From Variovorax paradoxus (lineage in GTDB: Bacteria > Pseudomonadota > Gammaproteobacteria > Burkholderiales > Burkholderiaceae_C): a DNA stretch of 64,000 nt. Of this stretch, positions 2,183 to 42,472 are shown in pieces (the stretch's first letter is position 1; the number at the start of each line of letters is the position of its first letter). Under the pieces are notes generated by a model, which had not been told where the DNA came from, did not search any database, and was given only the letters and a program-made list of their open reading frames with translations. The stretch is from NCBI RefSeq assembly GCF_030815855.1, contig NZ_JAUSXG010000001.1, positions 1,364,001-1,428,000 on the forward strand, in the 5' to 3' direction. Position numbers and translations under genes: made by a program.

Positions 2183-2219
2183 GCGCGGTGCTCCGTACCG
2201 GGAGGGCGGGTGGCGTCGC

Positions 2220-3200: not shown

Positions 3201-3216
3201 ACGGGACAGTTCATTT

Positions 3217-4155
3217 TTACGGCAGCGGCACGTCGGCGATCATGGCGCGCACCTGCTCCACGGCGCCGCGGCCTGCATCGCCCACGGGAGTGAGGCGGTG
3301 GGCGACGGTCTGCGGCAGTATCGACTGCACGTCATCGGGCGCGACGTAGTTGCGGTTGGCCAGCAGCGCCTGCGCCTTGGCGGCGCGCAGCACCGCAATG
3401 CCGGCGCGCGGCGAAAGGCCCTGCAAGAACCAGCGGCCGGAGCGCGTGGCGGCGATCAGGTCCTGCACGTAGTTCAGCAGCGGCTCGGCCGCATGCACCT
3501 GCTGAACGCGTTGCTGCAGCGCCGTGAGCTCGCCGGCGGTCAGCATCGCGGGCAGGGTGGCCAGCATCTCGCGGCGGTCGGCGCCCGCGAGCAGTTCGCG
3601 TTCGGCGGCGCGGTCCGGGTAGCCGAGCGAGATGCGCATCAGGAACCGGTCGAGCTGCGATTCGGGCAACGCGAAGGTGCCGAGCTGGTCCTGCGGGTTC
3701 TGCGTGGCAATCACGAAGAACGGCGTGGGCAGCGGCCGGGTCTCGCCTTCGATGGTGACCTGCTTTTCTTCCATGGCCTCGAGCAGCGCGCTCTGGGTCT
3801 TGGGGCTGGCGCGGTTGATTTCGTCGGCCAGCAGCACCTGCGCGAAGATCGGACCGGGATGAAACACGAAGGCCTGCTGCCCCCGATCGTAGATGGCCAC
3901 GCCCGACAGGTCGCCGGGCATCAGGTCGGCGGTGAACTGAACGCGCGAAAACTGCAGGCCGAAGGTGTGCGAGAGCGCATGGGCGAGGGTGGTCTTGCCG
4001 ACCCCCGGCACGTCCTCGATCAGCAGGTGCCCGCCCGCCAGCAGGCAGGCCACGCAGTCGCGCACTTGCGCCTCTTTGCCGACGATCACCGTGTTAAGCT
4101 GATTCAGCAAAGTGGCAAGCTTCGCAGCAACGTCCATATTTGTATCCATATGCAA
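3217..4155 (-). CDS. moxR: MoxR-family AAA+ ATPase
   Basis: 312 residues. Walker A is Gly-Val-Gly-Lys-Thr in a Glu-Asp-Val-Pro context near residues 47-56. Walker B is Leu-Leu-Ala-Asp-Glu-Ile-Asn-Arg near 108-115. Sensor 1 is Ala-Thr-Gln-Asn-Pro near 149, and an AAA lid domain makes up the C-terminal third. MoxR ATPases work as chaperone-like remodellers with DUF58/vWA partners, here the next gene. It is first in a minus-strand operon, and its promoter must lie in the 68-bp gap shared with the divergent deacetylase gene. Several in-frame ATGs (4155, 4149, 4137) make the exact start uncertain. A second, clearly different MoxR lies at 12688. Confidence 0.9.
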   Translation of the reverse strand: MHMDTNMDVAAKLATLLNQLNTVIVGKEAQVRDCVACLLAGGHLLIEDVPGVGKTTLAHALSHTFGLQFSRVQFTADLMPGDLSGVAIYDRGQQAFVFHPGPIFAQVLLADEINRASPKTQSALLEAMEEKQVTIEGETRPLPTPFFVIATQNPQDQLGTFALPESQLDRFLMRISLGYPDRAAERELLAGADRREMLATLPAMLTAGELTALQQRVQQVHAAEPLLNYVQDLIAATRSGRWFLQGLSPRAGIAVLRAAKAQALLANRNYVAPDDVQSILPQTVAHRLTPVGDAGRGAVEQVRAMIADVPLP

Positions 4156-8464: not shown

Positions 8465-10273
8465 ATGAGCTACACCGCCCCCCTCAAGGACATGCTGTTC
8501 GACATCGAGCACCTGGCCAACATTGGCGAGATCGCCAAGCTGCCCGGCTTCGAAGACGCAGGTCTTGAAACCGCACAGGCCGTGCTCGAGGAGTGCGCGC
8601 GCTTCAACCAGGATGTGGTCGCGCCGTTGAACGTCGAGGGCGACCGCAATCCCTCGGCTTTCAAGGGCGGTGAAGTCACCACCACGCCGGGCTTCAAGGA
8701 AGCGTTCGCGCAGTATGTCTCGGGCGGCTGGCAGGGCCTGCAGCATCCGTCGGAGTTCGGCGGCCAGGGCCTGCCCAAGACCATCGGCGCGGCCTGCGGC
8801 GAGATGCTCAACTCGGCCAACATGAGCTTCGCGCTGTGCCCGCTCCTGAGCGACGGCGCCATCGAGGCGCTGCTCACGGCCGGCTCCGACGAGCTCAAGG
8901 CGGTGTATCTCGAAAAGCTCGTGAGCGGCCAGTGGACCGGCACGATGAACCTCACCGAGCCGCAGGCCGGCAGCGACCTGGCCATGGTGCGCAGCCGCGC
9001 CGAACCGCAGGTGAGTCCATCCGGGCAGCCCGACGGCACCTACAAGATCTTCGGCACCAAGATCTTCATCACCTACGGTGAGCACGACATGGCCGAGAAC
9101 ATCGTGCATCTCGTGCTTGCGCGCGTGACCGGCGCACCCGAAGGCGTGAAGGGCATCAGCCTGTTCGTGGTGCCGAAGTTCATGGTCGGCAAGGACGGCG
9201 CACTCGGCGAGCGCAACGATGTGCACTGCGTGAGCATCGAGCACAAGATGGGCATCAAGGCCTCGCCGACCGCCGTGCTGCAGTACGGCGACAACGGCGG
9301 TGCCGTGGGCTATATCGTGGGCCAGGAAAACCGCGGCCTCGAGTACATGTTCATCATGATGAACTCGGCCCGCTATGCCGTGGGCATGCAGGGCATCGCG
9401 ATTGCGGAGCGCGCCTACCAGCACGCCGTGGCCTATGCGAAAGACCGCGTGCAGAGCCGACCGGTCGATGGCTCCATCAACGCCAGCGCGCCCATCATTC
9501 ACCACCCCGACGTCAAGCGAATGCTGATGACGATGCGTGCCTACACCGAGGGTTGCCGCGCGATGGCGAGCGTGGCTGCCGCCGCCTACGACGCCGCGCA
9601 CCACCACCCCGATGCGGAAGCGCGCAAGCAGAACCAGGCCTTCTACGAATTCATGGTGCCGCTCGTGAAGGGCTACAGCACCGAGATGAGCCTGGAGGTG
9701 ACATCGCTCGGCGTGCAGGTGCACGGCGGCATGGGCTTCATCGAGGAGACCGGTGCGGCGCAGTACTACCGCGACGCCAAGATCCTCACGATCTACGAAG
9801 GCACCACCGCGATCCAGGCCAACGACCTCGTGGGCCGCAAGACGGCGCGCGACGGCGGCCAGACGGCCAAGGCCATCGCGGCGCAAATCGAGAAGACCGA
9901 GGTCGAGCTGGCCAAGAGCGACAGCCCGGCCGCCGCGGCGGTTCTCAAGCGCCTGAAGGCTGCTCGCCAAGCGTTCGTGGAGGTGGTCGATTTCGTTGCG
10001 GGCCAGACCAAGGCCTCGCCGAATGCGGTGTTCGCAGGCAGCGTGCCCTACCTGATGCTCGCGGGCAACCTCGTGGCCGGCTGGCAGCTGGCGCGCTCGC
10101 TGATCATTGCCGAGGAGCTTGCCTCGCGCAGCGTCGATGTCGGCTTCATGCAAGCCAAGGTCGCGACGGCGCGCTTCTACGCCGAGCACATCCTGAACAA
10201 GGTGCCGGGAATCCGCGACAGCATCGTCGACGGCGCCGAGAGCGTCACCGCGCTGGCGCTCGACGCGTTCTGA
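8465..10273 (+). CDS. Acyl-CoA dehydrogenase (large, with C-terminal extension)
   Basis: 602 residues, longer than the 380-400 of classic acyl-CoA dehydrogenases. This matches the subclass with an extra N-terminal segment and a C-terminal acetyl-CoA-dehydrogenase-like domain. FAD-contacting Thr-Glu-Pro-Gln-Ala-Gly-Ser-Asp lies near residue 163. A conserved Ile-Tyr-Glu-Gly-Thr-Thr-Ala-Ile-Gln-Ala-Asn-Asp segment near 441-452 carries the likely catalytic glutamate. It removes two hydrogens from an acyl-CoA and passes electrons to ETF, encoded just upstream. Chain-length preference cannot be inferred. The ribosome site is TGGAGACAAGAC before the ATG. It has its own transcript, judging by the terminator ahead of it. 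Confidence 0.93.
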   Translation: MSYTAPLKDMLFDIEHLANIGEIAKLPGFEDAGLETAQAVLEECARFNQDVVAPLNVEGDRNPSAFKGGEVTTTPGFKEAFAQYVSGGWQGLQHPSEFGGQGLPKTIGAACGEMLNSANMSFALCPLLSDGAIEALLTAGSDELKAVYLEKLVSGQWTGTMNLTEPQAGSDLAMVRSRAEPQVSPSGQPDGTYKIFGTKIFITYGEHDMAENIVHLVLARVTGAPEGVKGISLFVVPKFMVGKDGALGERNDVHCVSIEHKMGIKASPTAVLQYGDNGGAVGYIVGQENRGLEYMFIMMNSARYAVGMQGIAIAERAYQHAVAYAKDRVQSRPVDGSINASAPIIHHPDVKRMLMTMRAYTEGCRAMASVAAAAYDAAHHHPDAEARKQNQAFYEFMVPLVKGYSTEMSLEVTSLGVQVHGGMGFIEETGAAQYYRDAKILTIYEGTTAIQANDLVGRKTARDGGQTAKAIAAQIEKTEVELAKSDSPAAAAVLKRLKAARQAFVEVVDFVAGQTKASPNAVFAGSVPYLMLAGNLVAGWQLARSLIIAEELASRSVDVGFMQAKVATARFYAEHILNKVPGIRDSIVDGAESVTALALDAF

Positions 10274-10353
10274 TCCAGGGCTTCGTGTCGCCCACCTGAC
10301 GGGCGACGCGGCCTTCCTCTTATATAAAACCGAAACCCCACCCCGGAGACGAC

Positions 10354-11316
10354 ATGTCCAAGCTGCCCCCCGTCCTCGCGAACCTGCCGCTGCCGATCAT
10401 CGGCTCGCCGCTGTTCATCATCAGCAACCCCAAGCTCGTGATCGCGCAATGCAAGGCCGGCGTGGTCGGCTCGATGCCGGCGCTCAACGCACGCCCGGCG
10501 GCGCAGCTCGAAGAGTGGCTGATCGAGATCACCGAAGAGCTCGCGGCCTACAACAAGGCCAACCCCCACAAGCCCGCCGCGCCGTTCGCCATCAACCAGA
10601 TCGTGCACAAGAGCAACGACCGCCTCGAGCACGACATGGAGATGGTCGTGAAGTACAAGGTGCCGATCGTCATCACCTCGCTGGGCGCGCGCACCGACGT
10701 GAACGACGCGGTGCACAGCTACGGCGGCGTGACGCTGCACGACATCATCAACAACAAGTTCGCGCAGAAGGCGATCGAGAAGGGCGCAGACGGCATCATT
10801 GCCGTGGCGGCCGGTGCCGGCGGCCATGCGGGCGTGAAGAGCCCGTTTGCGCTGGTGCAGGAGATCCGCCAATGGTTCGACGGCCCGATCGCGCTGTCGG
10901 GCTCCATCGCCTCCGGCGGCGCGGTGCTCGCGGCGCAGGCCATGGGCGCCGACTTCGCCTACATCGGCACCGCCTTCATCGCGACCGAAGAAGCGCGCGC
11001 CAGCGACGAATACAAGCAGGCCATCGTCGATGGCACCTCCGACGACATCGTGTACTCGAACCTCTTCACCGGCGTGCACGGCAACTACCTGGCGCCCAGC
11101 ATCGTCAAGGCCGGCATGGACCCGGCCAACCTGCCGGAGGGCGACGTGAAGACCATGAATTTCGCCGCCGGCGAAGGCAGCAAGGCCAAGGCCTGGAAAG
11201 ACATCTGGGGCTCGGGCCAGGGCATCGGCGCCGTGACAGAAGTGGCCAGCGCCGCTGCGTTCATCGAAAAGCTCAAGCGCGAATACCAGGAAGCAAGGCA
11301 GCGGTTGGCGCTTTGA
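10354..11316 (+). CDS. Nitronate monooxygenase (2-nitropropane dioxygenase family)
   Basis: 320 residues with a TIM-barrel FMN-binding pattern. Ala-Gly-Gly-His-Ala-Gly near residues 155-160 carries the conserved His; Ser-Gly-Ser-Ile-Ala-Ser-Gly-Gly near 182 and Gly-Ala-Asp-Phe-Ala-Tyr-Ile-Gly-Thr near 199 bind FMN phosphate. The family oxidises nitronates such as propionate-3-nitronate, although many members are annotated by similarity only. A GGAGACGAC ribosome site precedes the ATG. A small inverted repeat (GTCGCCC/GGGCGAC, 10287-10307) lies between it and the acyl-CoA dehydrogenase and may weaken read-through. The acyltransferase gene follows with overlap or a very short gap. Confidence 0.9.
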   Translation: MSKLPPVLANLPLPIIGSPLFIISNPKLVIAQCKAGVVGSMPALNARPAAQLEEWLIEITEELAAYNKANPHKPAAPFAINQIVHKSNDRLEHDMEMVVKYKVPIVITSLGARTDVNDAVHSYGGVTLHDIINNKFAQKAIEKGADGIIAVAAGAGGHAGVKSPFALVQEIRQWFDGPIALSGSIASGGAVLAAQAMGADFAYIGTAFIATEEARASDEYKQAIVDGTSDDIVYSNLFTGVHGNYLAPSIVKAGMDPANLPEGDVKTMNFAAGEGSKAKAWKDIWGSGQGIGAVTEVASAAAFIEKLKREYQEARQRLAL

Positions 11317-11366
11317 ACGGCGCGCACAGACCGGCGCCTGCCGCGGAGTCCGCGCAGCGCGGGCGC

Positions 11367-12473
11367 ATGCCGCTGCTCGACATTGCCAAGGGCATCGCTT
11401 GCGCGGTGATCGTCGGGCATCACCTGTCGCGCTATGGCGCCATGCCGGTGGGCGCCTTTCCCCTCGCACCGGATTTCCTCGGGTGGCTGATCGACGACGG
11501 CCGGCTTGCCGTGCAGGTGTTCCTGGTGATTGCAGGCTTTCTCGCGGCCGCAAGCCTGGCGCCTGACGGCGTGCTGCGGGTCGACCGGCCGATGGCGCGC
11601 ATCCTGCAGCGCTACGGCCGCCTGGTCATGCCGTATCTGGCCGCGCTCACCGTATGCGTGCTGGTGGCCGCGCTCGTGCGCCCCTGGATGAGCGGCGACG
11701 ATGTCCCGGCATCGCCCAGCATCGGCCAGTTGTTCGCGCACGGATTGCTGATGCAGGACCTGCTCGGATACGAGGCGCTCTCCACCGGCGTCTGGTACGT
11801 GGCCATCGACTTTCAGCTGTTCGTGCTCGCGCTCTCGCTCATGAGCCTGCCCGCCATGCTGCGGCGGAGCCCGGTCGCACCGGCCTCGCGTGAACGCTGG
11901 ATTCCCGTGGCGCTGGTGCTCGCGTTGGCCGTGGCCTCGCTGACGCTCTTCAATCGCGACGCGGGGCTCGACGACACGGCGCTCTATTTCTTCGGTGCCT
12001 ATGGGCTCGGCATGCTGGCGTTCTGGATCGGTCGCGCCACGCGCGCCAGCACCTGGCAGGGCGCCATCGCGTTGCTGGCGTTGACCGGCGCGGGCGCACT
12101 CGCCATCGACTGGCGCAGCCGCATCGCGATTGCACTGGTGAGTGCGCTGCTGATCGCCGTCGCGCAGCGGCAGGACTGGCTCTCTCTGGCGGGCCGGCCG
12201 AACGCGGCCATGCCCTTGCAGCGCCTGGGCCGCATCTCGTATTCGCTGTTCCTCATTCACTTTCCGGTGCTTCTCGCCATGAACGCAGCGGTTGTGCAGC
12301 TGGGGCCGCATGCCGGGTGGATCGATGCGCTGGGCATGGCCGTGACCTTCGGCCTTTCCGTGGCGGCCGCGCTGGTGCTGCACCGTTGGGTGGAGGTGCG
12401 GCCGGCCTCCTGGCGTGCGGTGGCTGCCTTGTTTGCCGCGCTGCTGGTCAGCGGGATGCTGGTTTCGGCTTGA
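11367..12473 (+). CDS. Membrane acyltransferase (acyltransferase 3 family)
   Basis: 368 residues and about ten membrane segments. The N-terminus has the family pattern Leu-Asp-Ile-Ala-Lys-Gly-Ile followed by a His-His pair at residues about 20-21; the second His matches the catalytic His of acyltransferase 3 (OafA/WecH-like) proteins. A later Ser-Tyr-Ser-Leu-Phe-Leu-Ile-His-Phe-Pro motif near residue 292 is also typical. These enzymes O- or N-acylate surface glycans or other exported molecules from the cytoplasmic side. A TTG at 11313 overlapping the previous stop could add 18 residues. The ATG start at 11367 is chosen because the conserved domain begins there. Confidence 0.85.
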   Translation: MPLLDIAKGIACAVIVGHHLSRYGAMPVGAFPLAPDFLGWLIDDGRLAVQVFLVIAGFLAAASLAPDGVLRVDRPMARILQRYGRLVMPYLAALTVCVLVAALVRPWMSGDDVPASPSIGQLFAHGLLMQDLLGYEALSTGVWYVAIDFQLFVLALSLMSLPAMLRRSPVAPASRERWIPVALVLALAVASLTLFNRDAGLDDTALYFFGAYGLGMLAFWIGRATRASTWQGAIALLALTGAGALAIDWRSRIAIALVSALLIAVAQRQDWLSLAGRPNAAMPLQRLGRISYSLFLIHFPVLLAMNAAVVQLGPHAGWIDALGMAVTFGLSVAAALVLHRWVEVRPASWRAVAALFAALLVSGMLVSA

Positions 12474-12687
12474 ACTGAGCGCGGGAAATGACCGTGTCCC
12501 TGTCAGCGGGGACGGTGACTTCTGTGTTCCTTCTTTTCGGCCACGTGGGTTCGAGGTTCTCGCGCGCGAGGTATTTATCGGCGCTCGCCCGCCATATCTG
12601 AGAAAAAATCCGCGCGCCGTGGCACGGCATGGCCTCGTTGCTGCGGCACACTCTCTGCATCTTTACGTGCAGAGAACTCTTTCTTCG

Positions 12688-13842
12688 ATGACCAGTCATT
12701 CCCTTCAGACTTCCGCAGATCATGTGCGCCAAGCGATCCGTACGTCCACCGCCGGGCTCATCGGCCGCGAGCAATTGGCCGAGCTGATAGTGCTGGCCGC
12801 CGTGGCCCAGGAGCACCTGCTGGTGGTTGGTCCGCCCGGAACTGCCAAGAGTGCGGTAGTGCGCCGAGTGGCGCAGAGTCTGGGCGGGCGCTACTTCGAA
12901 TACCTGCTCGGGCGTTTCACGGAGCCATCGGAGCTATTCGGCCCGGTCGATCTCAACAAGCTGCGTGCGGGCACTGTCGAGACCGACGTGACTGGCATGC
13001 TGCCCGAGGCCGACGTGGCGTTTCTGGACGAGGTCTTCCTGGGCTCCACCGCGATTCTGAATACGCTGCTCGGCGTACTCAACGAGCGGCGCTTCCGGCG
13101 CGGCCACACCCAGCTGCACTGCCCGTTGCGTGTGTGCGTAGGCGCGGCCAATGCATTGCCCGACGACGAAGGGCTCGCGGCTTTCGGAGACCGCTTTCTG
13201 CTGCATGTTTTCATCGAGCCGTTGCCTGACCATCAGCTCGAGGCCATGCTCACTGGCGGTTGGCGCTCCGACCACTCGCCCTCGGGCACGGGCACGGCGC
13301 TGGCGGACCTGGACACCCTGTGTCAGCAACTCAAGCAGGTCGACTTGAGCGGCGTGCAGCCGGCGCTAGCCAACGCGATCCGCAAGCTGCGCCAATCCGG
13401 CGTACAGCTGTCGGACCGCCGTATTGTGAAGTCGCAGCGCTTGCTGGCCGCCGCAGCCGTGCTGGCTGGCCGCCTGCACACCACCGAGGCCGATCTTTGG
13501 CCTCTGCTGTATGTGCTGCCCACGCAGGAGGCGCAGCAAAGCGCACGCGACGTTCTGCGCGACGCTTTCGCCAACGCCAATCATCCGCACCTGCTGAGCG
13601 CGGTGGAAGAGGCCACGCTGCAGCCGTTGTCGCGCGCCGCGCGGCTGGCCGAGTCGGCGCGCGCTTGCCTGGAGGGCGAGCCCGCCGCCGTGCGCGCGCA
13701 GGCAGAGAGTGTGCTGCGCGAGATCGACGCCAACTTCAACAGCGAGCAACTGCCCGAGGCATTGGGTGGTCTGCGCGGGCAACTTGTCGAACGCCTTGTG
13801 TCCTCTGTTTCCGGGCCCGCTTTTACTCCCGCTTCCGCATGA
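12688..13842 (+). CDS. MoxR-type AAA+ ATPase of a bpX ternary system
   Basis: 384 residues. Walker A is Gly-Pro-Pro-Gly-Thr-Ala-Lys-Ser at 48-55, Walker B is Val-Ala-Phe-Leu-Asp-Glu-Val-Phe near 109-116, and Asn-Ala-Leu-Pro-Asp-Asp-Glu follows sensor 1 near 155. The C-terminal ~150 residues form a helical lid and tail, longer than in the other MoxR at 3217. It resembles the RavA/MoxR branch. The next three genes overlap it head to tail (ATGATG/TGA at 13839). Together they match the MoxR-vWA-beta-propeller ternary systems described by comparative genomics as predicted conflict or signalling devices, where the ATPase would be the motor. The true role is not established. Confidence 0.88.
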   Translation: MTSHSLQTSADHVRQAIRTSTAGLIGREQLAELIVLAAVAQEHLLVVGPPGTAKSAVVRRVAQSLGGRYFEYLLGRFTEPSELFGPVDLNKLRAGTVETDVTGMLPEADVAFLDEVFLGSTAILNTLLGVLNERRFRRGHTQLHCPLRVCVGAANALPDDEGLAAFGDRFLLHVFIEPLPDHQLEAMLTGGWRSDHSPSGTGTALADLDTLCQQLKQVDLSGVQPALANAIRKLRQSGVQLSDRRIVKSQRLLAAAAVLAGRLHTTEADLWPLLYVLPTQEAQQSARDVLRDAFANANHPHLLSAVEEATLQPLSRAARLAESARACLEGEPAAVRAQAESVLREIDANFNSEQLPEALGGLRGQLVERLVSSVSGPAFTPASA

Positions 13843-14288
13843 TGAGCCAGGCGACCTTGTTCGCCTGGCGCTGGCGTGCGCGCGCCGAGGCGCTGCCCGC
13901 GCAGGCGGCCGTTGCCTGGGGGGCCGCGGCGCGCGTGCTGCACGCACGGCTGCGGCAGTTCGAGCCTGAGCACCAAGTCGGCCTTTCTGCCACCGCCAGC
14001 CGCGACCTGCTGATCGTGGTGGGCGAGGGGGCCGCCCTCCCGTGGGTCGATGGCATCGCCTATGCCGGGCCCTGCACCGAAACGCCCGGTCTGTGGCTGC
14101 CGACGCTTGAAGAGCCTGACCTGCCCGCGGATTTGATCGCACGCAGCTTGGAGCGCCAGCACCAAGGGCGCCAGCCGCTGTTGTTGTGGCCGCGGCCTGA
14201 AGCCGTGCTGCCGCTGGACCGGCTGCTTCCGCTGTCGCAGCCGCTGCTCGCCCGCATTTTGACCCACTGGCAGGGAGGTGGAGCGTGA
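13839..14288 (+). CDS. Small bpX5-like component of the MoxR ternary system
   Basis: 149 residues, no membrane segment and no signal peptide. The centre carries an Ala-Leu-Pro-Trp-Val-Asp-Gly-Ile-Ala-Tyr motif (near residues 66-75), followed by a Gly-Leu-Trp-Leu-Pro-Thr stretch near 84. This pattern recalls the bpX5 domain, from memory. The start overlaps the moxR stop by four bases and its own stop overlaps the GTG of the next gene, so the products are probably made in fixed ratio. Function is unknown; it is likely an adaptor of the complex. The bpX number is less certain than the membership of the system. Confidence 0.7.
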   Translation: MMSQATLFAWRWRARAEALPAQAAVAWGAAARVLHARLRQFEPEHQVGLSATASRDLLIVVGEGAALPWVDGIAYAGPCTETPGLWLPTLEEPDLPADLIARSLERQHQGRQPLLLWPRPEAVLPLDRLLPLSQPLLARILTHWQGGGA

Positions 14289-16159
14289 GCGCCGCGACCA
14301 CCGAACTCCCCGCGGCGCTCAAGCCCTGGCACCCATGGCTCGAATGGTTCGGCGCCGAACTGGCGGCCGAACTCGGCGCGCTGATCCAGCGCATGCAGCC
14401 GCTTTTGGGCCGCTTCCAGGGCGAGGTGCGCGGCGGGCAGCCCGAGCCCGACGGTCTCGACGATCTGCGTCGGCGCGGACGCTACGAGCGCCTGCTCTCC
14501 ACCGAATGGCTGCTGGCCGACGAACTGCCCGACGAGTTCCTGCGCCGCGCGGCTTCGAGCGAGCATCTTTTCCTGGCGCCGCGCCCGCGCTCGCGCGAGG
14601 CTGAAAAAGGCATCGTCGCGATCTTCGACACCGGCCCGCTGCAGCTCGGCGCGCCGCGCCTCGGCCAACTCGCACTCTGGATCCTGCTGGCGCGCCGCGC
14701 GGCGCAGACCGGCGGTGCGCTCCAGTGGGGCGTGCTGCAGATACCCGGCAAGCTGCACGATACGCACGACGTGCGCCAGCTCAAGCTCCTGATGAAGAGC
14801 CGCAGCTATGTGGTCGGTGACCCAGAGCACGCCGATGAATGGCAAGCGGCGCTTGCCGAATTGCCGCACCCGCCCGGGGAAAGCTGGCTGATCGGCGCCG
14901 CACCGGTGCAGCAGCCCATGGCCGAGCGCTGGACCAGCCATCGCATCCGCCTGTGCCGGGCCGTGCAGAGCGATGTGCTCGAAGTGTCTCTGAGCGGGCG
15001 CGCCGGACTGAGCCATGCCGCACTGCCGCTGCCGTCGGTGAAGACGGCGGTGCCGCTGCTCAAAGGCGAGTTCACCTCGGTGGCGCCGGCCACCGTGCAC
15101 CAACGTCACCGCGGCCGCATTTCGTTGCAGCGACCGCCATTGATTTCCCCGCACGGCGCGCACGTCGCGGTGCAGTTGCTCGACGAGCCGGGCGTGGTAG
15201 TGTTTCCCGTCGCCAGCCTCGCGCAGCGCAAACCCGGCAAGCCCAGGTACCAGCGTTGGGGCGACGGGCTGGAGCCGCTGACGGCCATGTTCGCGGGCAA
15301 GCGTTTGGGTGCTTTGCTGGGCTTTGAGCGCTCGATGTATTTCTGGCAGGTCCAGGGGTTGGGCAGTTTCATCGCGCCCGAGGTGGATGTGTTCCGCGCA
15401 CCGCCCGGGCTTGGCTCGTGGCTGCCCTCGGCTTGGCTGCACAACGCCCAGAAGCAGTGCGTGTGCGTGCTCGACAAGGACAACCGGCTCGTGGCCTGGG
15501 AGGCGTCGAGGATCGGCACGCCATCCTTGGAGCCCAAGCCGCCGAAGCTGATCGACAGGCACGTGATGGGTATGCTCCAGTGGTCTGACAGCGCGCTGGT
15601 CTATGCAGTCATCCGCTCGAACCTCCTGGTGCTGTGCCGGTTGGGCCTGGAAGCCTCGCCTTCGACGGTGCTCACGGTATGCACGCGGGCAGAGGATACC
15701 GTCGTGCTCTTTGGCGGAGGTACGCAGTGGAAGCGCGGCATCGGCAGCTGCGCGGTGCGCATCGCCGCCGCTACCGGCGGGAACGAAACCTGGCGCATCT
15801 ACGAGCCCACGCCCCAGGCCGCCAGTGCCGGCATGCGGTACTTCGAGTCCTCGAAGGCTTGGACAAGTTTCGAACTCACCATCCATCGGGGCATCGCCCT
15901 GGTTCATGACACCAAGAACACACGCTTTGCGATGCTGAGCCTGTCGCCCGATCGGACCGCGCTGGTGCTGCACGCGAAGGACGAGCGACCCGAAGTGGTC
16001 TATACCGCGCCCGAGCGCATCGAAAAGGTCAGCGTCTGCCCCAACAGCGGGTTGGCCGTGATGCTTACCGTCCACAAGAAGGTCATCTTTTATGTGGTGC
16101 CCGAGCGTGCATTGCGCGCCGTGCTGCATGGCGAAGGAGCGGACGATGCAGTTGCCTGA
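14285..16159 (+). CDS. Degenerate vWA plus beta-propeller protein of the MoxR ternary system
   Basis: 624 residues with a GTG start overlapping the previous stop. Residues ~60-200 look like a vWA fold: Arg-Leu-Leu-Ser-Thr-Glu-Trp-Leu-Leu, then a hydrophobic strand into Phe-Asp-Thr-Gly-Pro at 114-118 and Gly-Ala-Pro-Arg-Leu-Gly-Gln-Leu-Ala. The strand and Asp115 sit where a metal-site DxSxS would be, but both serines are absent, so divalent metal binding is probably altered or lost. From about residue 215 on, short repeated beta-strand blocks with Trp/Gly/Asp spacing suggest a beta-propeller. The predicted role is a substrate- or target-binding partner of the MoxR motor. It overlaps the last gene by 14 bp. 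Confidence 0.72.
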   Translation: MSAATTELPAALKPWHPWLEWFGAELAAELGALIQRMQPLLGRFQGEVRGGQPEPDGLDDLRRRGRYERLLSTEWLLADELPDEFLRRAASSEHLFLAPRPRSREAEKGIVAIFDTGPLQLGAPRLGQLALWILLARRAAQTGGALQWGVLQIPGKLHDTHDVRQLKLLMKSRSYVVGDPEHADEWQAALAELPHPPGESWLIGAAPVQQPMAERWTSHRIRLCRAVQSDVLEVSLSGRAGLSHAALPLPSVKTAVPLLKGEFTSVAPATVHQRHRGRISLQRPPLISPHGAHVAVQLLDEPGVVVFPVASLAQRKPGKPRYQRWGDGLEPLTAMFAGKRLGALLGFERSMYFWQVQGLGSFIAPEVDVFRAPPGLGSWLPSAWLHNAQKQCVCVLDKDNRLVAWEASRIGTPSLEPKPPKLIDRHVMGMLQWSDSALVYAVIRSNLLVLCRLGLEASPSTVLTVCTRAEDTVVLFGGGTQWKRGIGSCAVRIAAATGGNETWRIYEPTPQAASAGMRYFESSKAWTSFELTIHRGIALVHDTKNTRFAMLSLSPDRTALVLHAKDERPEVVYTAPERIEKVSVCPNSGLAVMLTVHKKVIFYVVPERALRAVLHGEGADDAVA

Positions 16160-19124
16160 GCGCAAGCCCATGCGTATGCGCGCGGCCGAGGTTCGCCACC
16201 CCGTGCTCAAGGGGCGGCAACTTGTGGCGGGGCTGTGGTTTTCTTCCGAATGGCTGGCCGAGCCTCATCGCGCGCGGCGCATCGTCGAAGCCTGGCGCGC
16301 GGGCGCGCGGCTGTTCCGATTCGCCCAGGGTGACTTGCTGCGGTTCGCAGCGCCGGTCTCGCTCGATTGCGACCGGCTTGCCGGCTGGCCGCTTCGGCGC
16401 GAAGGAGCCGCCCTGTGCTCGGCCGAGCTTGCGCCATCCGAACGCGACGCACTGCCGATGGGCGACGTGTGGCTGGTGCAGGGCGGCGAGGTTCTCTCGC
16501 TGCAGCTCTCGCAGGCCGAGCCCTTCGACGTATCGATGTGGCTCGACACCGGTCCCGCCCTACTCGACACCTTCGATTGCCGCGAAACCCTGCCCGAACC
16601 GGTGGTGCTCGACACGGATGGACGCTCGGTGCGCGAGGTTCTCGGCGATGCAATTGCGCCGGCCAGCGACGGGCAATTGGACTTCCTCAAGGCCGTGGCC
16701 GATCGCGCACGCGCCATGGAGGCCCGCCGCAGCATCATGGCCCCCGAGGCGCCCGTCCAGCGTCGAGGCGGCAGTGCGGGCAGCGGCTACAAGTGGTGGG
16801 GCTGGGCGCTGGGCGCGCTGGTCCTGCTGTGGCTCATTGTCTCCGGCGAAAACCGGGCGCCGTCCCCGCTGGACCTGGCGAAGCCGAATGCCCCGCGTCA
16901 CGAACCCCCCACGCAGTTCGACGCATCGTCGATCCGCATCGCGATCATCACGCTGCTGATCGTGGCCTTGGTGATCTGGGCAACGACCCGCGTGCAAGCG
17001 CACCGAGCGCGTCAAGGAACGGGCCGCCGCCCTGTGCGCGCGGCCAAGCCTGCGCCGGCGCGTACCGATCCAACGCCATCGCCGCCGGCGTCTTCGCTGA
17101 AGCCGCGCGGCAATGCAAGGCCGCTGCGTTCGCGCTGGCGCGATTGGCTCGCGCGCATGGCCATCGCGTCCCAGGTTTCGAAGCTACTGGGCCGCCAGCA
17201 GGCCGCTTACATGCGGCGCATGCTCAAGATGTTCGACGACGGCGATCTCATGGAGGCCTTGCGCCACGCGATTCCTCTGGGCGGCGATGCACACGATGTC
17301 GGTCAGGCCTTGGGTACACCCGGTCGGCGTGAGAGCCTGTCGCTCAACGGGTCGACAGGGTCGCGTTCAAGTATCTACCTCGACGACAACTTCCAGGACC
17401 ATCTGCGGCAGCTCTACCGAAAGAGCTTCGAGAAGCTGGACCGTGATGGCCGCATCGACGAGGCGGTGTTCGTGCTGGCCGAGTTGCTTCAGTCGCACCA
17501 GGAGGCGCTTGACTACCTGGAGAAGCACCTGCGCTTTGCGCAGGCCGCCGAACTCGCGCTCAGCTGGGACCGCCCGCCCGAAGTCATCGTGCGCCTCCTG
17601 TGCCTGGCCGGCGACTGGCGGCGCGCCATCGCGGTCGCGCGCCGCGACAACGCCTTCGCCAACACGGTGATGCAACTACAAGCCAGGTGGCCCGAGATGG
17701 CGAACCGACTGCGCGAGGAATGGGGCCAATCGCTGGCTCAGCGCGGCGAGTGGCTGCAGGCGGTGGATGCCGTCTGGCCCGTGGCCGCCGCGCGCGAACA
17801 GGCGATGACGTGGCTTCTGGCGGCCGAGGACGCTGATGACCGGCTTGCGGCGCGCGCGCTGGTGCAGCGCGCACTGTTGCTGCCTGACACGCTTGATGCC
17901 TGCGCGGAGCGCCTGCGTGCCCTTCGCGACGCCCCGCTCCTGCACCGCGAACGCGCCGCGCTCGCGAGCGAACTGTTGGCCGTGGCCGACCACAACGCCA
18001 CCTCACGCGGTTTGGTGGCCGTGCTGGCGCCTGCACTGATTGCCGATCACGCAGGCGGGCACGGGCGCATGGACAAGCGCTCTTTCCAGTCGCTGTTGCG
18101 CATCCATGGCGACCAGATGCTGCGCGCCGACATGCCGGGCGGCGAGATGCCGGGTTTCGAGCCCCGGCTGCTCACCGCGCGTTCCAACGTGTTGCCACTG
18201 GACGCGCCATCGGCCGGTGCGCATGTCGTGCACGACGCGGCCTTGCTCGACGACGACCGTTATCTGTTGGCACTCGGAGAGGCGGGTGCTGTCATGACCG
18301 ACAGCGCAGGCCGTGTGCTGGCCCGCTTCGCGGTGCCGGCGTATCGGCTGGTGCCCGCCTACAGCGGACAGGTCGCATTGGCGCTGGCGCAACGCGACGG
18401 CCTTTGGCGCGTGAGCCGGCTCGACCTGGTGCGGCGCCAGATCGACGACCTGGGCCTGTCCACCATCGCGCATTTCGCCAGCGAATTCGACGGCACCGGC
18501 TGGACCGTGGCGCGCGGCAATCGAATCCAGGTGCTGGACACGGGCCGCTCCCTGCAGGACGTGCTCTGGCAGGTGGCCGACCTGCCGGGGGAGGTGGTCG
18601 AACTCACGGCCACGCGTTACCTGGAGCAGTTCGTTGTGCATGACGACGTGCTGGGCCCTAGCCTCTGGCGCTATCAGCGTCAGCCGCGGCGTCTGCAGAG
18701 CCGCGAGGCGATGGACTTCTCTGCAGCCCCGATTTCCAAGCACATGCTGCACCCGCAGTTGGGCGCGTTCCGCCTGCTGAGCGAGGTCGATGGCGACGGC
18801 GCCCTTTGCCTGCGATGGCGGGTGATGCACGGCACGGAGGGTGAAATTCGCCTGGCCGACCACCAGGACGCACCGGAGGGCACGACGCTGGGCTTCTGGG
18901 TCGATCGCGACTGGCTGGTAGTGATGCGCGCCTTGTCCGGGAACACCACAGTGCAATGGTTCAACATGCGCGGAGGCCGCATGGCGGCATCGATGGCGTG
19001 GCCCGCCGGTGCCGAGCCGAACATACGCGCAGTTGTCGACGGCTGGCTGCTCTTCGACGCCCAGGGGCGGGTGCTGCACCTGAATACCGAGCGCAGTGTG
19101 ACGTCCGGTTTTTCTATCCGCTGA
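16146..19124 (+). CDS. Large bpX6-like membrane protein with C-terminal beta-propeller
   Basis: 992 residues; a GAAGGAG ribosome site lies seven bases before the ATG at 16146. Residues ~8-160 match my memory of the bpX6 domain (His-Pro-Val-Leu-Lys-Gly, Gly-Leu-Trp-Phe, Gly-Asp-Leu-Leu-Arg-Phe). Two hydrophobic helices near 214-232 and 262-282 are separated by a short proline-rich loop, so the protein is probably a membrane hairpin. A basic linker follows, then alpha-helical repeat-like sequence (~330-640). From ~665 to the end, beta-propeller-like blocks appear. It would anchor the MoxR/vWA complex at the inner membrane with most of its mass cytosolic. No enzymatic motif was found. Confidence 0.72.
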   Translation: MQLPERKPMRMRAAEVRHPVLKGRQLVAGLWFSSEWLAEPHRARRIVEAWRAGARLFRFAQGDLLRFAAPVSLDCDRLAGWPLRREGAALCSAELAPSERDALPMGDVWLVQGGEVLSLQLSQAEPFDVSMWLDTGPALLDTFDCRETLPEPVVLDTDGRSVREVLGDAIAPASDGQLDFLKAVADRARAMEARRSIMAPEAPVQRRGGSAGSGYKWWGWALGALVLLWLIVSGENRAPSPLDLAKPNAPRHEPPTQFDASSIRIAIITLLIVALVIWATTRVQAHRARQGTGRRPVRAAKPAPARTDPTPSPPASSLKPRGNARPLRSRWRDWLARMAIASQVSKLLGRQQAAYMRRMLKMFDDGDLMEALRHAIPLGGDAHDVGQALGTPGRRESLSLNGSTGSRSSIYLDDNFQDHLRQLYRKSFEKLDRDGRIDEAVFVLAELLQSHQEALDYLEKHLRFAQAAELALSWDRPPEVIVRLLCLAGDWRRAIAVARRDNAFANTVMQLQARWPEMANRLREEWGQSLAQRGEWLQAVDAVWPVAAAREQAMTWLLAAEDADDRLAARALVQRALLLPDTLDACAERLRALRDAPLLHRERAALASELLAVADHNATSRGLVAVLAPALIADHAGGHGRMDKRSFQSLLRIHGDQMLRADMPGGEMPGFEPRLLTARSNVLPLDAPSAGAHVVHDAALLDDDRYLLALGEAGAVMTDSAGRVLARFAVPAYRLVPAYSGQVALALAQRDGLWRVSRLDLVRRQIDDLGLSTIAHFASEFDGTGWTVARGNRIQVLDTGRSLQDVLWQVADLPGEVVELTATRYLEQFVVHDDVLGPSLWRYQRQPRRLQSREAMDFSAAPISKHMLHPQLGAFRLLSEVDGDGALCLRWRVMHGTEGEIRLADHQDAPEGTTLGFWVDRDWLVVMRALSGNTTVQWFNMRGGRMAASMAWPAGAEPNIRAVVDGWLLFDAQGRVLHLNTERSVTSGFSIR

Positions 19125-19131
19125 GTAGCAA

Positions 19132-19554
19132 TTACTTCCAGGGCGCAGGCGGCGGAATCTCGCAGACCGGCTCGACGTCGATGCTCTTGAAATCGGCCGG
19201 CGAGACGATTTCCAGGTATTCCATATCGGGCGAGTAGTCGAACAGGAAGTGGCGGATGCCGGGCCGCTGGTGCACGACGTCGCCGGCTTCCACGAGCGTT
19301 TCCTTGTCTTCGTACATGAAGCGGGCCCAGCCCTTGACCATGATCACGATCTGGAAGTCCGCCTCGTGGCGGTGCCAGCCGGTGCCCGTTTCGGGTGCCA
19401 TGTTGGCCTTGACGAGGTGCGCGATGACTTTGCCGTGGGTCGCCTCCGCGATGCCGAGGTCGCGATACAGGAAGAAATCGCGCAGGCCTCCCGGGACGAA
19501 CTCCGTGTCGCCGGGCTTGACGTGGGAGAACTGGGTGGCGGTTCGGTCCGGCAT
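19132..19554 (-). CDS. Small cupin-domain protein
   Basis: 140 residues. The cupin core reads Gly-Thr-Gly-Trp-His-Arg-His-Glu-Ala-Asp-Phe-Gln near residues 56-67, giving the two His and Glu of cupin motif 1. Motif 2 (His-Gln-Arg-Pro-Gly-Ile-Arg-His) lies near 97-104. Such single-domain cupins bind a metal and act in sensing, sugar or aromatic metabolism; no specific substrate can be assigned. The ATG at 19554 follows AAGGA by eight bases; a longer in-frame start at 19638 lacks support. It is convergent with the bpX6-like gene (7-bp gap) and divergent from the ArsR gene. Confidence 0.8.
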   Translation of the reverse strand: MPDRTATQFSHVKPGDTEFVPGGLRDFFLYRDLGIAEATHGKVIAHLVKANMAPETGTGWHRHEADFQIVIMVKGWARFMYEDKETLVEAGDVVHQRPGIRHFLFDYSPDMEYLEIVSPADFKSIDVEPVCEIPPPAPWK

Positions 19555-24965: not shown

Positions 24966-25052
24966 GTGAAGCTCATTCTGAAAACAATATTCTTATTGGT
25001 TGGATTGCCATTAGGTAATTCGGCTTATCGGCCGAGTGCGGTGCCGCAATGA
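24966..25052 (+). CDS. Short leader ORF coupled to vgrG (28 residues)
   Basis: A GTG at 24966 with a strong GGGAGGTGA ribosome site opens a 28-residue frame. It begins with two Lys and a hydrophobic Ile/Leu/Phe/Val stretch (residues 3-15) and ends at a TGA overlapping the vgrG ATG (ATGA at 25049-25052). vgrG itself has no good ribosome site, so translation of the leader could drive vgrG translation. The peptide resembles a tiny membrane or signal-like peptide. It could equally be the remnant of a longer gene. No family is recognised. Confidence 0.5.
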   Translation: MKLILKTIFLLVGLPLGNSAYRPSAVPQ

Positions 25053-28000
25053 GCCGTCGCGTCAGCATCCGAACGCCCTTGGGCGAGTCGTTGCAATTTC
25101 ACCAACTGGTGGGCCGGGAGGCGCTGAGCCAGCTCTACGCCTTCGACATCGGCCTGCTGGGCAGCAGCAACGCCATCGACTCCAAAGCCCTGCTCGGCAA
25201 GGCCTCGACGGTGGCGGTGGAAACCGAAAGCGGTGGCGTGCGCTATCTCGGTGGCATTGCGACCCGGTTCGGCCTGCAACAGGAAGACGCGCGCCATTCC
25301 TTCTATCGCATGCAACTGCGGCCCTGGCTGTGGCTTGCCACGCGGCGCAGCGATTTCCGCATCTTCCAGGGCAAGAGCGTGCCCGACATAGTGACCGAAG
25401 TGCTGGGCAGCTACGGCTATCCCATCGAGAAGAAGCTCAGCCGGGGCGACTACCGCCGCTGGGACTACTGCGTCCAGTACCACGAGAGCGACTTCAATTT
25501 CATCTCGCGGCTGTGCGAGCTCGAAGGCATTTATTACTATTTCCGGCACGAGGCTTCGCAGCACGTCCTGGTGTTTGCGGACGACATTGCGAGCTCGCAC
25601 GCACCGCTGCCTGGCGGAGAGTCGGTGCGCTTTCACCCGCTCGAAAAATCCGGCATGGGCCAGCGCGAGCGCATCTATGCCTGGGAAACCGCGGAAGAGG
25701 TGCGCGCGGGCCATCACTACAACAACGACTTCGACTTCGAGAAGCCCAAGGCCGACCTCTCGCACCTGCGGCAGATGCCGCCCGGCCACGACCACGACAG
25801 CTACGAGAACTACGAGTGGCCCGGCGGCTTCGTGCAGCACGCCGACGGCGAGACCTACGCGCGCCTGCGCAATGAAGAGCAATTGAGCCAACGCAGCCGC
25901 GCGAGCGGCCGCTCCAACCTGCGCGAACTGGCAACCGGCCACACGCTGCGTCTTGCCGGCCACCCCCGGGCCGACCAGAACCAGCAGTACCTGCTGACAA
26001 GCGTGAGCTATCACCTGCAGGAGAACCTGCAGGCCAGCGAGGGCGCGGACGCTACCGAGGGCTCGGTGCAGCGCTTCGCGTTCGATGCGCAGCCCACCAG
26101 CCTGGCATGGCGCCCGCAGCGCACCACGCCCAAGCCGCGCACCCGCGGTCCGCAGACCGCCATGGTGGTGGGCCCGGCCGGCGAAGAAATCTGGACCGAC
26201 CCGTACGGCCGCATCAAGGTGCAGTTTCACTGGGACCGCCTCGGCAAGGACGACGAGAACTCCAGCTGCTGGGTGCGCGTGTCCACCGCCTGGGCGGGCG
26301 CCACCTTCGGCGCGGTGTCCGTGCCGCGCATCGGCATGGAGGTGATCGTCGACTTTCTGAACGGCGACCCGGACTATCCGATCGTGACGGGCTGCGTCTA
26401 CAACGCCGACACCATGGCGGCGTGGCAGTTGCCGGAGCAAAAGCACCTGTCAGGCATTCGCAGCCGCGAACTGGGCGGCGGGCGCGGCAATCACCTGGTG
26501 CTGGACGACACCCACGGAAAGATCCAGGCGCAGTTGCGCAGCGACCACCAGGCCAGCCAGCTGAGCGTGGGGCACATCGGCCGCATCGAAGACACGGCGG
26601 GGCGCAAGGAGCCGCGCGGGCAGGGCTTCGAGTTGCGCACGGATGGGCATGGCGTGGCACGCGCAGCCAAGGGGCTGCTGGTAACCACAGAGCCGCGGCT
26701 CAACGCGCAGGCGCACACCACCGACATGGGCGAGACCGTCGGTCGGCTCACGCAGGCCGGCGACCTGCACGAGGGCCTGAGCGAAGCGGCCCAGGCCGCG
26801 CAGGCGCACGATGCGGGCGACCAGGACGAAGTCGCCAAGGGCCTGAAGGAGCAGAACGACGCCATCAAGGGCCAGGGCGGCAATCGCGAGCAGGGCGACT
26901 TCCCCGAGTTTCAGGAGCCGCACCTCACGCTTGCCAGCGCCAAGGGCCTGCAAACCGTGGCGCAGGGTTCCACGCACGTGGTGAGCAACGAGCACAACGC
27001 GCTCACCAGCGGCGGCCACACGAGCGTGAGCGCAGGCAGGAGCTTTCTGGTGAGCGTGCAGAGCGCCATCCGCATGTTCGCTTCCAAGGCCGGCATGCGG
27101 CTGGTGGCGGCCAGCGCCGACATCGACATCAAGGCGCTGAAGGACAGCGTCAATGTGCTCGCCAAGCTCAACATCACGCAAACCGCCAACAAGATCACCA
27201 TTCACGCGAAGGAAGAGGTGGTGATCAACGGCGGCTCCAGCTACAGCCGCTGGAGTTCGGGCGGTATCGAGCACGGCACCTCGGGCACCTGGCGCGAACA
27301 CGCGGCGGTGCACAGCCTGGTGGGACCGGCCAGCCAGGGCAAGCCCTCGCTGCCCAACCCGCCGCAGTTGCCCAAGGGCCAGCTCGATCTGTACCACCAG
27401 TACATCAAGCCCACCGGCGAAAAGCACCAGGGCGTCGCGCAAGGCGACTTCACCGTGGTCGATTCCGAAGGCGGCACGCACGCCGGCACCTTCGATCGCA
27501 ATGGCTTCGCAAGCGTGTCGGGTTTGCCGATCGGCACCGCGAAGGTCACCTTCGGCAAGGACCCGCGCGATCCGTGGGACGAGGGCAGCTACTTTGGCAC
27601 GCCCAAGGACTGGAAGGCAAAAGAACCTGCCGGCGGCGGCGCCGATGCGGCGGGCGCTGGGTCGGGATTGTCGGGCGTTCTAAGCAGTGCGGGCAATCTT
27701 GCCGGCTGGGCCGGTTCAGCCGGCGGCGCCGCGGGCGCGCTCGCGGGCGTCGCCGGCATGAACAGCAAGACCGCGGGCATGCTCGGGCAGGTCACCCAGG
27801 CGGCCGGCATGGCGCAGCAGGCAGTGGGCGCCGCGCAGGACCTTCGGCAAGGCGGCGCCAAGGCGCTGTTGGGCCAGGCCAGCCAGGCCGCCACTGGCAT
27901 GGCAATGCAGGCCGCTGGCGCGCGGCTCGGACCGATGGGCGCACCCGTCGCCGGTATTGCCAATGTGGCGAGCAGTGCGATGAGCGGCGGCGTGCCGGCC

Positions 28001-28075
28001 GGCATCAAGACGGGCATTGCCACAGCCGCCACTAATCCCGCGCTTGCGGGGCGCACCCCGGGCTTCATCGGCTGA
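25049..28075 (+). CDS. vgrG: Type VI secretion spike protein VgrG (TssI) with C-terminal extension
   Basis: 1008 residues. Order: a gp27/phage GPD-like base (1-~350), a gp5-like OB domain (~365-465, with Asp-Pro-Tyr-Gly-Arg-Ile-Lys-Val-Gln-Phe-His-Trp-Asp and Val-Ser-Thr-Ala-Trp-Ala-Gly), a needle with DUF2345 (~600-770, Thr-Leu-Ala-Ser-Ala-Lys-Gly-Leu), a small transthyretin-like carboxypeptidase-regulatory domain (~775-850), and a Gly/Ala-rich hydrophobic tail to 1008. It trimerises as the puncturing tip and carries cargo. The TTR-like domain is a known adaptor that binds effectors. The adjacent rhs genes lack PAAR, so they may ride on this extension. No T6SS core gene is nearby: this is an orphan vgrG island. 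Confidence 0.95.
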   Translation: MSRRVSIRTPLGESLQFHQLVGREALSQLYAFDIGLLGSSNAIDSKALLGKASTVAVETESGGVRYLGGIATRFGLQQEDARHSFYRMQLRPWLWLATRRSDFRIFQGKSVPDIVTEVLGSYGYPIEKKLSRGDYRRWDYCVQYHESDFNFISRLCELEGIYYYFRHEASQHVLVFADDIASSHAPLPGGESVRFHPLEKSGMGQRERIYAWETAEEVRAGHHYNNDFDFEKPKADLSHLRQMPPGHDHDSYENYEWPGGFVQHADGETYARLRNEEQLSQRSRASGRSNLRELATGHTLRLAGHPRADQNQQYLLTSVSYHLQENLQASEGADATEGSVQRFAFDAQPTSLAWRPQRTTPKPRTRGPQTAMVVGPAGEEIWTDPYGRIKVQFHWDRLGKDDENSSCWVRVSTAWAGATFGAVSVPRIGMEVIVDFLNGDPDYPIVTGCVYNADTMAAWQLPEQKHLSGIRSRELGGGRGNHLVLDDTHGKIQAQLRSDHQASQLSVGHIGRIEDTAGRKEPRGQGFELRTDGHGVARAAKGLLVTTEPRLNAQAHTTDMGETVGRLTQAGDLHEGLSEAAQAAQAHDAGDQDEVAKGLKEQNDAIKGQGGNREQGDFPEFQEPHLTLASAKGLQTVAQGSTHVVSNEHNALTSGGHTSVSAGRSFLVSVQSAIRMFASKAGMRLVAASADIDIKALKDSVNVLAKLNITQTANKITIHAKEEVVINGGSSYSRWSSGGIEHGTSGTWREHAAVHSLVGPASQGKPSLPNPPQLPKGQLDLYHQYIKPTGEKHQGVAQGDFTVVDSEGGTHAGTFDRNGFASVSGLPIGTAKVTFGKDPRDPWDEGSYFGTPKDWKAKEPAGGGADAAGAGSGLSGVLSSAGNLAGWAGSAGGAAGALAGVAGMNSKTAGMLGQVTQAAGMAQQAVGAAQDLRQGGAKALLGQASQAATGMAMQAAGARLGPMGAPVAGIANVASSAMSGGVPAGIKTGIATAATNPALAGRTPGFIG

Positions 28076-28133
28076 AGCGGCACCGCGCGTATTTCGAATA
28101 ACAAGACGTCTCGGGAACAGGGAAAACAAGGCA

Positions 28134-33904: not shown

Positions 33905-33984
33905 GTTGCCAGGTCATCATCCCTCGGCGACATCTTGCGCGAAGCGGGGAGCCGCTGAGCGCCTAACGCAATGGAGAACAGCTC

Positions 33985-34371
33985 ATGGAAAACGATGCTT
34001 CCGCTTCGGACTCGTCTCTCTCTCCCATTTCGGGCGCTCAGAGCTATGCGCTCACTGACGAGCAACGCCTTGCGCTAATGGCAAAGGCGGAAGCCGGCAA
34101 CGCCGACTCCGCCTTTCGGCTCTCGCTGTACTACACCTTCACGTTCTCCGATCCCGATCAATCGATGCACTGGCTTTCGATGGCGGCCAAGGGTGGCCAC
34201 AGCATTGCGCAGCACAACCTTGCCTATGACCTTTACATGAACGGCACGGATATCGCAAAGGCTGCCTATTGGGCCGCGGAGTCGCAGAGGAACGGCAACG
34301 CCGAAGCCGGCTGGCTGTTGAGCGAAATCGAAACCGAGAAGGTCGTTTCAGGGTGGAGCCCGCTGACGTGA
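33985..34371 (+). CDS. Cytosolic Sel1-like repeat protein, single module
   Basis: 128 residues with no signal peptide. It carries one module homologous to those of the upstream exported protein (Ala-Lys-Ala-Glu-Ala-Gly-Asn-Ala-Asp-Ser-Ala-Phe-Arg-Leu-Ser near residues 32-46, then Met-Ala-Ala-Lys-Gly-Gly-His). It probably arose by duplication of one module and lost, or never had, the export signal. It may protect the cytosol against the same toxin or be a remnant. The stop overlaps the GTG of the pentapeptide gene. Confidence 0.75.
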   Translation: MENDASASDSSLSPISGAQSYALTDEQRLALMAKAEAGNADSAFRLSLYYTFTFSDPDQSMHWLSMAAKGGHSIAQHNLAYDLYMNGTDIAKAAYWAAESQRNGNAEAGWLLSEIETEKVVSGWSPLT

Positions 34372-34862: not shown

Positions 34863-34878
34863 GGGGGAATCAGAAAAA

Positions 34879-40064: not shown

Positions 40065-40073
40065 AGGTCTTAA

Positions 40074-40490: not shown

Positions 40491-40540
40491 CGATATATTT
40501 TGCTCGTGTCGCACGCGGTATTGAGTTAAATTCTGACGGG

Positions 40541-40996: not shown

Positions 40997-41059
40997 TTCT
41001 TCAGTTTCTGCCACGAAAAAGCCGCCTGTCACTCAACCGCTGAAGCTGGGTTGCTGCTA

Positions 41060-41914: not shown

Positions 41915-41922
41915 GGACTCTT

Positions 41923-42387: not shown

Positions 42388-42472
42388 TGCGAGCACGAAC
42401 GTGTTTTATGCCGAAACTTCTCGCCTCTAGGAGGTCGAGGCAACTAGTGCTCAAAATTTTCTGAAGCGGCAT

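Follow-up and report, generated by a model that had tools for sequence, protein, structure and literature searches.

Beta-propeller MoxR-vWA ternary systems were described in 2020 as subsystem 4 of the MoxR-vWA systems (Kaur et al., 2020; PMC7159879). According to the parts of that paper used here, the P-loop of the MoxR ATPase often reads GXXXTAKS, the vWA component carries a C-terminal propeller and has a divergent vWA domain in a subset, and the third component consists of a membrane segment, tetratricopeptide repeats (TPR) and a propeller, with a highly variable N-terminus. Extra linked genes are found in a subset. The role in biological conflict was inferred for the propeller class and is a prediction; indeed, since 2020 the class itself has stood as a prediction from computation, and no experimental study of it was found among the best matches in open-licence full text of PubMed Central. 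Here, we describe a four-gene cassette of this type in a 64,000-nucleotide stretch of the Variovorax paradoxus genome (NZ_JAUSXG010000001.1, positions 1,364,001 to 1,428,000; hereafter the window), which is part of a 5.95-Mb single-contig genome.

Other MoxR proteins provide partial parallels. RavA and ViaA are located at the inner membrane and bind phospholipids (cited sections of PMC9489729). In the NorQ-NorD pair, a finger of the vWA protein was proposed, from low-resolution cryo-electron microscopy and AlphaFold models, to reach into the pore of the MoxR ring, and the pair was proposed to remodel a membrane enzyme (cited sections of PMC9976466). This proposed motor-adaptor principle is what the NorQ-NorD and CbbQ-CbbO chaperones would have in common with the present cassette. 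In clade 2b-a of Pseudomonas syringae, ravA, bpX5, 6ND4, and bpX6 are unique to the clade and lie in one region of genomic plasticity, RGP_32, with bpX5 assigned to COG class V; the passage concerned contains no functional discussion, and the likeness to our cassette, as assessed here, is one of component names (PMC9677677).

The cassette comprises four genes on the forward (+) strand, with products of 384, 149, 624, and 992 amino acids and with adjacent pairs overlapping by 4, 4, and 14 bp; the reading frames, sizes and overlaps given in a first-pass annotation of the window were all reproduced. They encode a bpMoxR-type MoxR AAA+ ATPase (12688..13842; Pfam PF20030, E = 9.1e-88), a bpX5 protein (13839..14288; PF19921, E = 2.7e-50), a protein without Pfam family that occupies the position of the vWA-propeller component (14285..16159; hereafter protein 3), and a bpX6 membrane protein (16146..19124; protein 4). 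A second ATG of the bpX5 gene at 13842 would reduce its overlap with the MoxR gene from 4 to 1 bp. The bpX6 start at 16146 is supported by a nearby upstream AAGGAG and by a methionine that is found in the matching column in 87 of the 94 aligned homologues.

With a bpMoxR carrying a GXXXTAKS P-loop, an operon arrangement, an additional small conserved gene, a propeller-ending component, and a membrane protein with a helical region and a C-terminal propeller, the cassette fits what is cited above of subsystem 4, and three of the four genes match Pfam families named for the class. It differs from that description in that the vWA half is unrecognizable by profile and that the bpX6 domain is not among the variable parts within the subfamily. 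The cassette is a member of the propeller MoxR-vWA ternary systems and not an undescribed system. Its filing by the first-pass annotation among the MoxR-vWA-bpX systems therefore holds, whereas the suggestion made there that it might represent an undescribed system does not, since the class was described in 2020 and Variovorax homologues are already named "bpX6 domain-containing protein" by NCBI. What is new is the status of the cassette in Variovorax, where it forms an optional insert at a single site of the chromosome.

The four genes stay together. A scan of named genome contigs with MoxR only yielded 28 loci, and all four genes were present in the same order and on the same strand in 25 of them. 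Two loci (L035 and L038) are truncated where the contig or the locus ends. In the remaining one, L045 from a member of the Nannocystaceae, where MoxR identity is 39%, no partners were detected by tblastn with the proteins of the window; at 10001-12803 of that locus, a bpMoxR gene is followed by a gene for a 540-amino-acid AAA_16-type protein, and no propeller partners were found. L045 may be a different MoxR-centered system. As the 28 loci were retrieved by MoxR only, an identical gene order on a single strand in 25 of them is far beyond chance, and the cassette is held together across several proteobacterial genera. The refuting outcome named in the first-pass annotation, a survey in which the four genes are not conserved together, did not occur. 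In addition, each of the three bpX5 loci from the phylum sample has MoxR and protein 3 genes beside bpX5, and protein 3 adjoins bpX6 in the seven bpX6 loci of the genus, the window being included in both sets. The four proteins show correlated pairwise distances (Pearson coefficients of 0.76-0.88 across 25 loci, without species-tree control), which reflects shared history rather than contact, as species relatedness alone can produce such a correlation. A conserved fifth partner was considered and rejected: among the 45 widest-spread ORF (open reading frame) families in the 10-kb flanks, where a family was listed only if present in at least four loci, no gene was common to unrelated genera, kinase and LysR paralogues aside. 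The shared families are restricted to either Variovorax or Lysobacter-type loci, or belong to these common paralogues.

Among named homologues, those that match proteins 3 and 4 best belong to Variovorax. In this genus, bpX6 was detected in only 7 of 100 genomes. It was found in at least 3 of 399 genomes in the family sample (2 above cut-off) and at least 4 of 369 in the class sample, and bpX5 in 1 of 61 in the sample of relatives and at least 3 of 398 in the phylum sample. All counts include the window's genome, and the family, class and phylum counts, for which at most 8-10 candidates were scored per genome, are lower bounds. Since the upstream sequences of L102, L103, and L104 are identical to those of L019, L021, and L020, respectively, the named and the other Variovorax carriers overlap. 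Directly 5' of the MoxR start in the window, a palindrome with a 9-bp stem is present (12652-12675), which inspection by eye did not reveal upstream of the other Variovorax loci. A CTGCGGCACACT-like stretch is common to the window and most of the other Variovorax upstream sequences.

In all seven carriers in the genus, the bpX6 gene adjoins one and the same cupin gene. The site was compared in 19 congeners without bpX6 match, which were taken from the best cupin matches. In four of them (L094, L096, L097, and L098), the left flank (up to 12463-12467) and the right flank (from 19138) are only 34-50 bp apart, and these base pairs replace an optional insert that extends over 12468..19137 in the window. 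In six others, the two flanks are separated by different DNA (about 1 to 9 kb), and for the remaining nine, the roughly 12 kb taken do not include the left flank. Among the six other carriers, the left flank of the window lay within the stretch taken in only one (L106). Since congeners have both empty and otherwise-filled sites, the Variovorax cassette is an optional insert in the chromosome, and its site takes exchangeable cargo. With a GC content of 0.682, the cassette differs little from its flanks (0.665 and 0.662), and its composition thus carries no strong foreign signature. Pfam searches with 10 cargo ORFs sampled from eight relatives (six non-carriers and two carriers) identified transporters, a transporter-type binding protein, a LysR regulator, cytochrome bd, an AMP-binding enzyme, a TonB receptor, and a histidine kinase, and two of the 10 had no match. 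A TonB-receptor-like protein at the site is common to carriers L102-L105 (L102 was scanned, the others were assigned by blastp clustering). In other loci of the set L083-L107, MFS, ABC, or cytochrome bd genes occupy the cupin-adjacent site. With one cassette at a known position and relatives in which that position is free of it, the locus constitutes a natural experiment, in a genus that is not known to be hazardous.

The MoxR protein, recognized as such in the first-pass annotation, has the catalytic motifs of a AAA+ ATPase, with GPPGTAKS as the P-loop and FLDEV as Walker B. In a motif alignment of 30 rows including the window, from which a 31st row, L045, was excluded, GPPGTAKS is present in 28 rows and GPPGTGKS in two, whilst FLDEV and DRFL are kept in all 30. 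By sequence, its nearest solved relative is RavA (3nbx; E = 3.1e-37, 131.6 bits), with which it shares the RavA-type AAA+ core, the pairing of a MoxR with a partner and, by prediction, a location at the inner membrane, but its score of 152.7 bits is well below the RavA equivalog cut-off of NCBIfam (681 bits). The RavA-ViaA pair of E. coli is not known to include propellers, bpX5 or bpX6. The second protein, which had been called bpX5-like and is confirmed as such by its Pfam match, contains no hydrophobic membrane segment.

Protein 3 had been annotated as a vWA-plus-propeller protein. The propeller is supported by the structure model (AlphaFold, mean predicted local distance difference test score, pLDDT, 87.8), where it occupies residues 276-618 (15110..16138). 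The vWA part is less clear. Residues 108-260 (14606..15064) form an alpha/beta region with a vWA-like strand and helix order in the model (b-a-b-b-a-a-b). Its metal ion-dependent adhesion site (MIDAS) is degenerate: the motif reads D115-x-G-x-x-Q, and strand 199-204 ends without a second acidic residue. Nevertheless, D115, G117, and Q120 are invariant in all 113 sequences of the alignment, which holds 113 of the 120 proteins listed, from 280 matches. In NorD, by comparison, the MIDAS is conserved (cited sections of PMC9976466). Thus, the vWA identity of the N-terminal half is suggested by predicted topology only, and profile searches do not recognize it (see below). The most conserved part of the protein is found at residues 61-140 (14465..14704), where mean entropy per 20 columns is 0.47-1.05 bits, compared with 1.3-2.9 bits elsewhere, and this segment may be a candidate MoxR-facing adaptor surface. 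The propeller, in contrast, ranks with the most variable regions found in either protein 3 or protein 4.

Protein 4 shows the layout described for the third component, i.e., a membrane segment, a helical region, which was not separately matched to TPR, and a C-terminal propeller. It starts with the bpX6 domain at residues 16-183 (16191..16694; PF19922, E = 4.5e-64), which is followed by a membrane region (16794..17015) with AlphaFold helices at 217-233 and 260-290. The hydrophobic helix 260-290 is likely to be transmembrane, since the only hydropathy peak above 1.6 (2.35) is located at 263-281, and helix 217-233 is a possible second transmembrane helix. An alpha-solenoid at residues about 330-662 (17133..18131) and a propeller at 683-990 (18192..19115) complete the model (mean pLDDT 81.9), which together with the hydropathy peak agrees with the earlier annotation as a 992-residue membrane protein ending in a propeller. 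In an alignment of 95 of the 120 proteins listed, from 347 matches, residues 421-580 in the solenoid are strongly conserved and rank, like residues 61-140 of protein 3, among the most conserved stretches by entropy. The variable regions are the linker 181-320 and most of the last blades (821-960); residues 201-300 reach an entropy of 2.6-2.9. This map, with a rigid motor and solenoid and variable blades and linker, points to the mutants with which the idea of a motor, an adaptor, and a reader can be addressed.

The ratios of nonsynonymous to synonymous substitution rates (dN/dS) were computed against four Variovorax loci (L018-L021). They amount to 0.06-0.10 for MoxR, which is strongly conserved, 0.16-0.29 for bpX5, 0.18-0.47 for protein 3, and 0.21-0.35 for protein 4, whereas the downstream neighbors, where aligned, gave 0.03-0.04 (cupin), 0.16-0.18 (MFS), 0.18-0.23 (ArsR), and 0.04-0.10 (aroC). 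The partners thus diverge faster than MoxR, yet under purifying selection overall. The dS values of the cassette (0.57-1.13) tend to be above those of the neighbors (0.29-0.64), which would fit a history partly separate from that of the flanks.

On balance, we favor, with moderate confidence, the view that the cassette is a new chromosomal member of the ternary systems that works at the inner membrane as an accessory, ATP-driven remodeling complex and most likely serves conflict or stress responses as a threshold switch. This proposal builds on the linkage and variability described above and on the domain set, which is predicted in part by models. The MoxR ATPase would form a ring, to which the N-terminal 260 residues of protein 3, with their conserved segment 61-140, may connect as a vWA-like adaptor by analogy with NorQD. 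The propeller of protein 3 might dock on protein 4 or on the target, and the variable blades of both propellers would bind target and partner, whilst protein 4 presumably anchors the complex at the inner membrane, where ATP turnover would remodel an inner-membrane complex. As its purpose, a response to conflict or stress is preferred over maturation of a linked enzyme, because no client gene was seen traveling with the cassette among the 45 flank ORF families; a chaperone role comes close behind.

Several results weigh against this proposal. All dN/dS values are below 0.5 in the four comparisons, and relative to the nearest locus, L018, bpX5 (0.19) and protein 3 (0.18) evolve no faster than the neighboring MFS gene (0.18). 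The protein 3 profile matched VWA_2 and CoxE sets, composed of the 23 of 30 and 7 of 11 sequences, respectively, that contain the DxSxS motif, no better than did shuffled columns, whilst the positive control reached 95%. Also, Pfam VWA families are absent from the matches of 63 protein 3 homologues, and among the 50 matches listed in either of two comparisons of protein 3, none is titled vWA domain, propellers being found throughout. The best local alignment to a CoxE-type vWA places D115 on the MIDAS aspartate column, but with P = 0.22 it was given no weight. The bpX6 domain is fairly conserved among the 95 proteins of the subfamily, unlike the variable N-terminus that is stressed in the cited parts of Kaur et al. 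(2020). Close copies of the cassette were not found on plasmids or phages in searches with protein 4, whose one plasmid match was weak and partial (35% identity over 21% of the query) and which had no match among phages, and a scan of viral contigs by exact peptide patterns for MoxR found no relative of it. Finally, no defense family was recognized by Pfam among the 10 sampled cargo ORFs, the cargo being metabolic or regulatory where identified. The stress- or invader-triggered device envisaged in the first-pass annotation is a hypothesis with which the patchy presence at one site and the faster divergence of the partners agree, whereas the absence of a PADLOC match, of close plasmid or phage copies, of a defense gene among the sampled cargo, and of a recognized killing domain speaks against it.

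More specifically, the cassette might serve in anti-phage or anti-invader defense, with propellers that sense the invader and a membrane protein that disrupts the membrane or contains the infection. We regard this as possible but rather improbable. Conflict roles were predicted for the class (cited parts of PMC7159879), and the patchy presence, the optional insertion, and the faster change of the partners relative to the motor would suit such a function, as would the clade-unique P. syringae set in a plasticity region with its COG class V bpX5 (cited passage of PMC9677677). However, no effector or killing domain was recognized, plasmids and phages are without close copies, and the four proteins fit no model in PADLOC-DB 2.0.0, where MoxR matches seven models at E = 1.9e-4 or weaker and the other three proteins remain unmatched at E up to 1. 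A location in a defense island was rejected as well. When 129 flank ORFs of 14 loci were compared with PADLOC at E up to 1e-15, the matches comprised 56 families, and among the best 25 of these 56, all but one had a single member. Those that were traced by rescanning 10 of the 129 ORFs proved to be RtcR in L024 and generic proteins of two kinds, an IetA/AAA protein in L030 and a kinase in L036, which accounts for the PD-T4-6 and mad6 matches. As MzaA (two members), mad3, RT, and PDC-M42C were not assigned to genes, a minority of the loci may have defense neighbors. Overall, the evidence for an anti-phage function of the cassette is weak.

Alternatively, the cassette could encode a membrane-associated chaperone comparable to RavA-ViaA or NorQD. 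Its client, an envelope or respiratory complex whose genes lie elsewhere, would be matured or remodeled by it, and only strains in need of this would carry the cassette. RavA being the nearest solved relative, the membrane localization and phospholipid binding of RavA and ViaA, the remodeling proposed for NorQD, the purifying selection on all four genes, and the metabolic or regulatory appearance of the window's flanks and of the sampled cargo all argue for this. The norQD and coxDE genes sit linked to the genes of their client enzymes, whereas no client gene linked across genera was seen for the cassette among the 45 flank ORF families. As the cassette is also carried by only 7 of the 100 genomes of the genus and its partners outpace the motor in divergence over the set, such a role is unlikely, though it deserves consideration. 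A bolder idea, which we put forward tentatively and consider no more probable, is that propeller MoxR systems in general are not defense systems but exchangeable inner-membrane remodeling machines, with a fixed engine that is re-targeted strain by strain. The engine would consist of MoxR, residues 61-140 of protein 3, and the bpX6 solenoid, whilst the fast-changing propeller blades and the membrane linker would provide the re-targeting, the whole being maintained as an optional insert where the other sampled cargo is metabolic or regulatory.

Finally, the cassette is very unlikely to belong to the type VI secretion VgrG/Rhs cluster nearby (from 25049), e.g., as an assembly chaperone. VgrG does begin about 6 kb downstream of the cassette in the window and is also found downstream in two other carriers (G465 and G500). 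However, of four genomes without cassette match, two (G456 and G486) have VgrG near aroC as well, and VgrG is absent from the 20 kb taken from carrier G457 and is not seen in the named loci, whose sequences extend no more than about 5 kb beyond the cassette. For carrier G512, the stretch taken ends inside aroC and is uninformative on this point.

The window also contains an ordinary second MoxR cluster on the opposite (-) strand (164-4155), with genes for an AAA_3-type MoxR (3217-4155) and a TgpA-type transglutaminase (164-2266). Between such genes, a DUF58 protein is expected; here, the position is taken by an ORF of 326 amino acids (2220-3200, - strand) without Pfam match at E = 0.001. In the VgrG/Rhs cluster (25049-39576, + strand), the VgrG gene precedes genes for two large Rhs proteins, which are separated by a TPR-like and a weak Sel1-like ORF. 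Past the second Rhs gene, seven small ORFs without Pfam match at E = 0.001 are present (39573-42742, + strand), and the ORF at 41923-42387 has an unusually low GC content of 0.46, 0.35, and 0.45 at the three codon positions.

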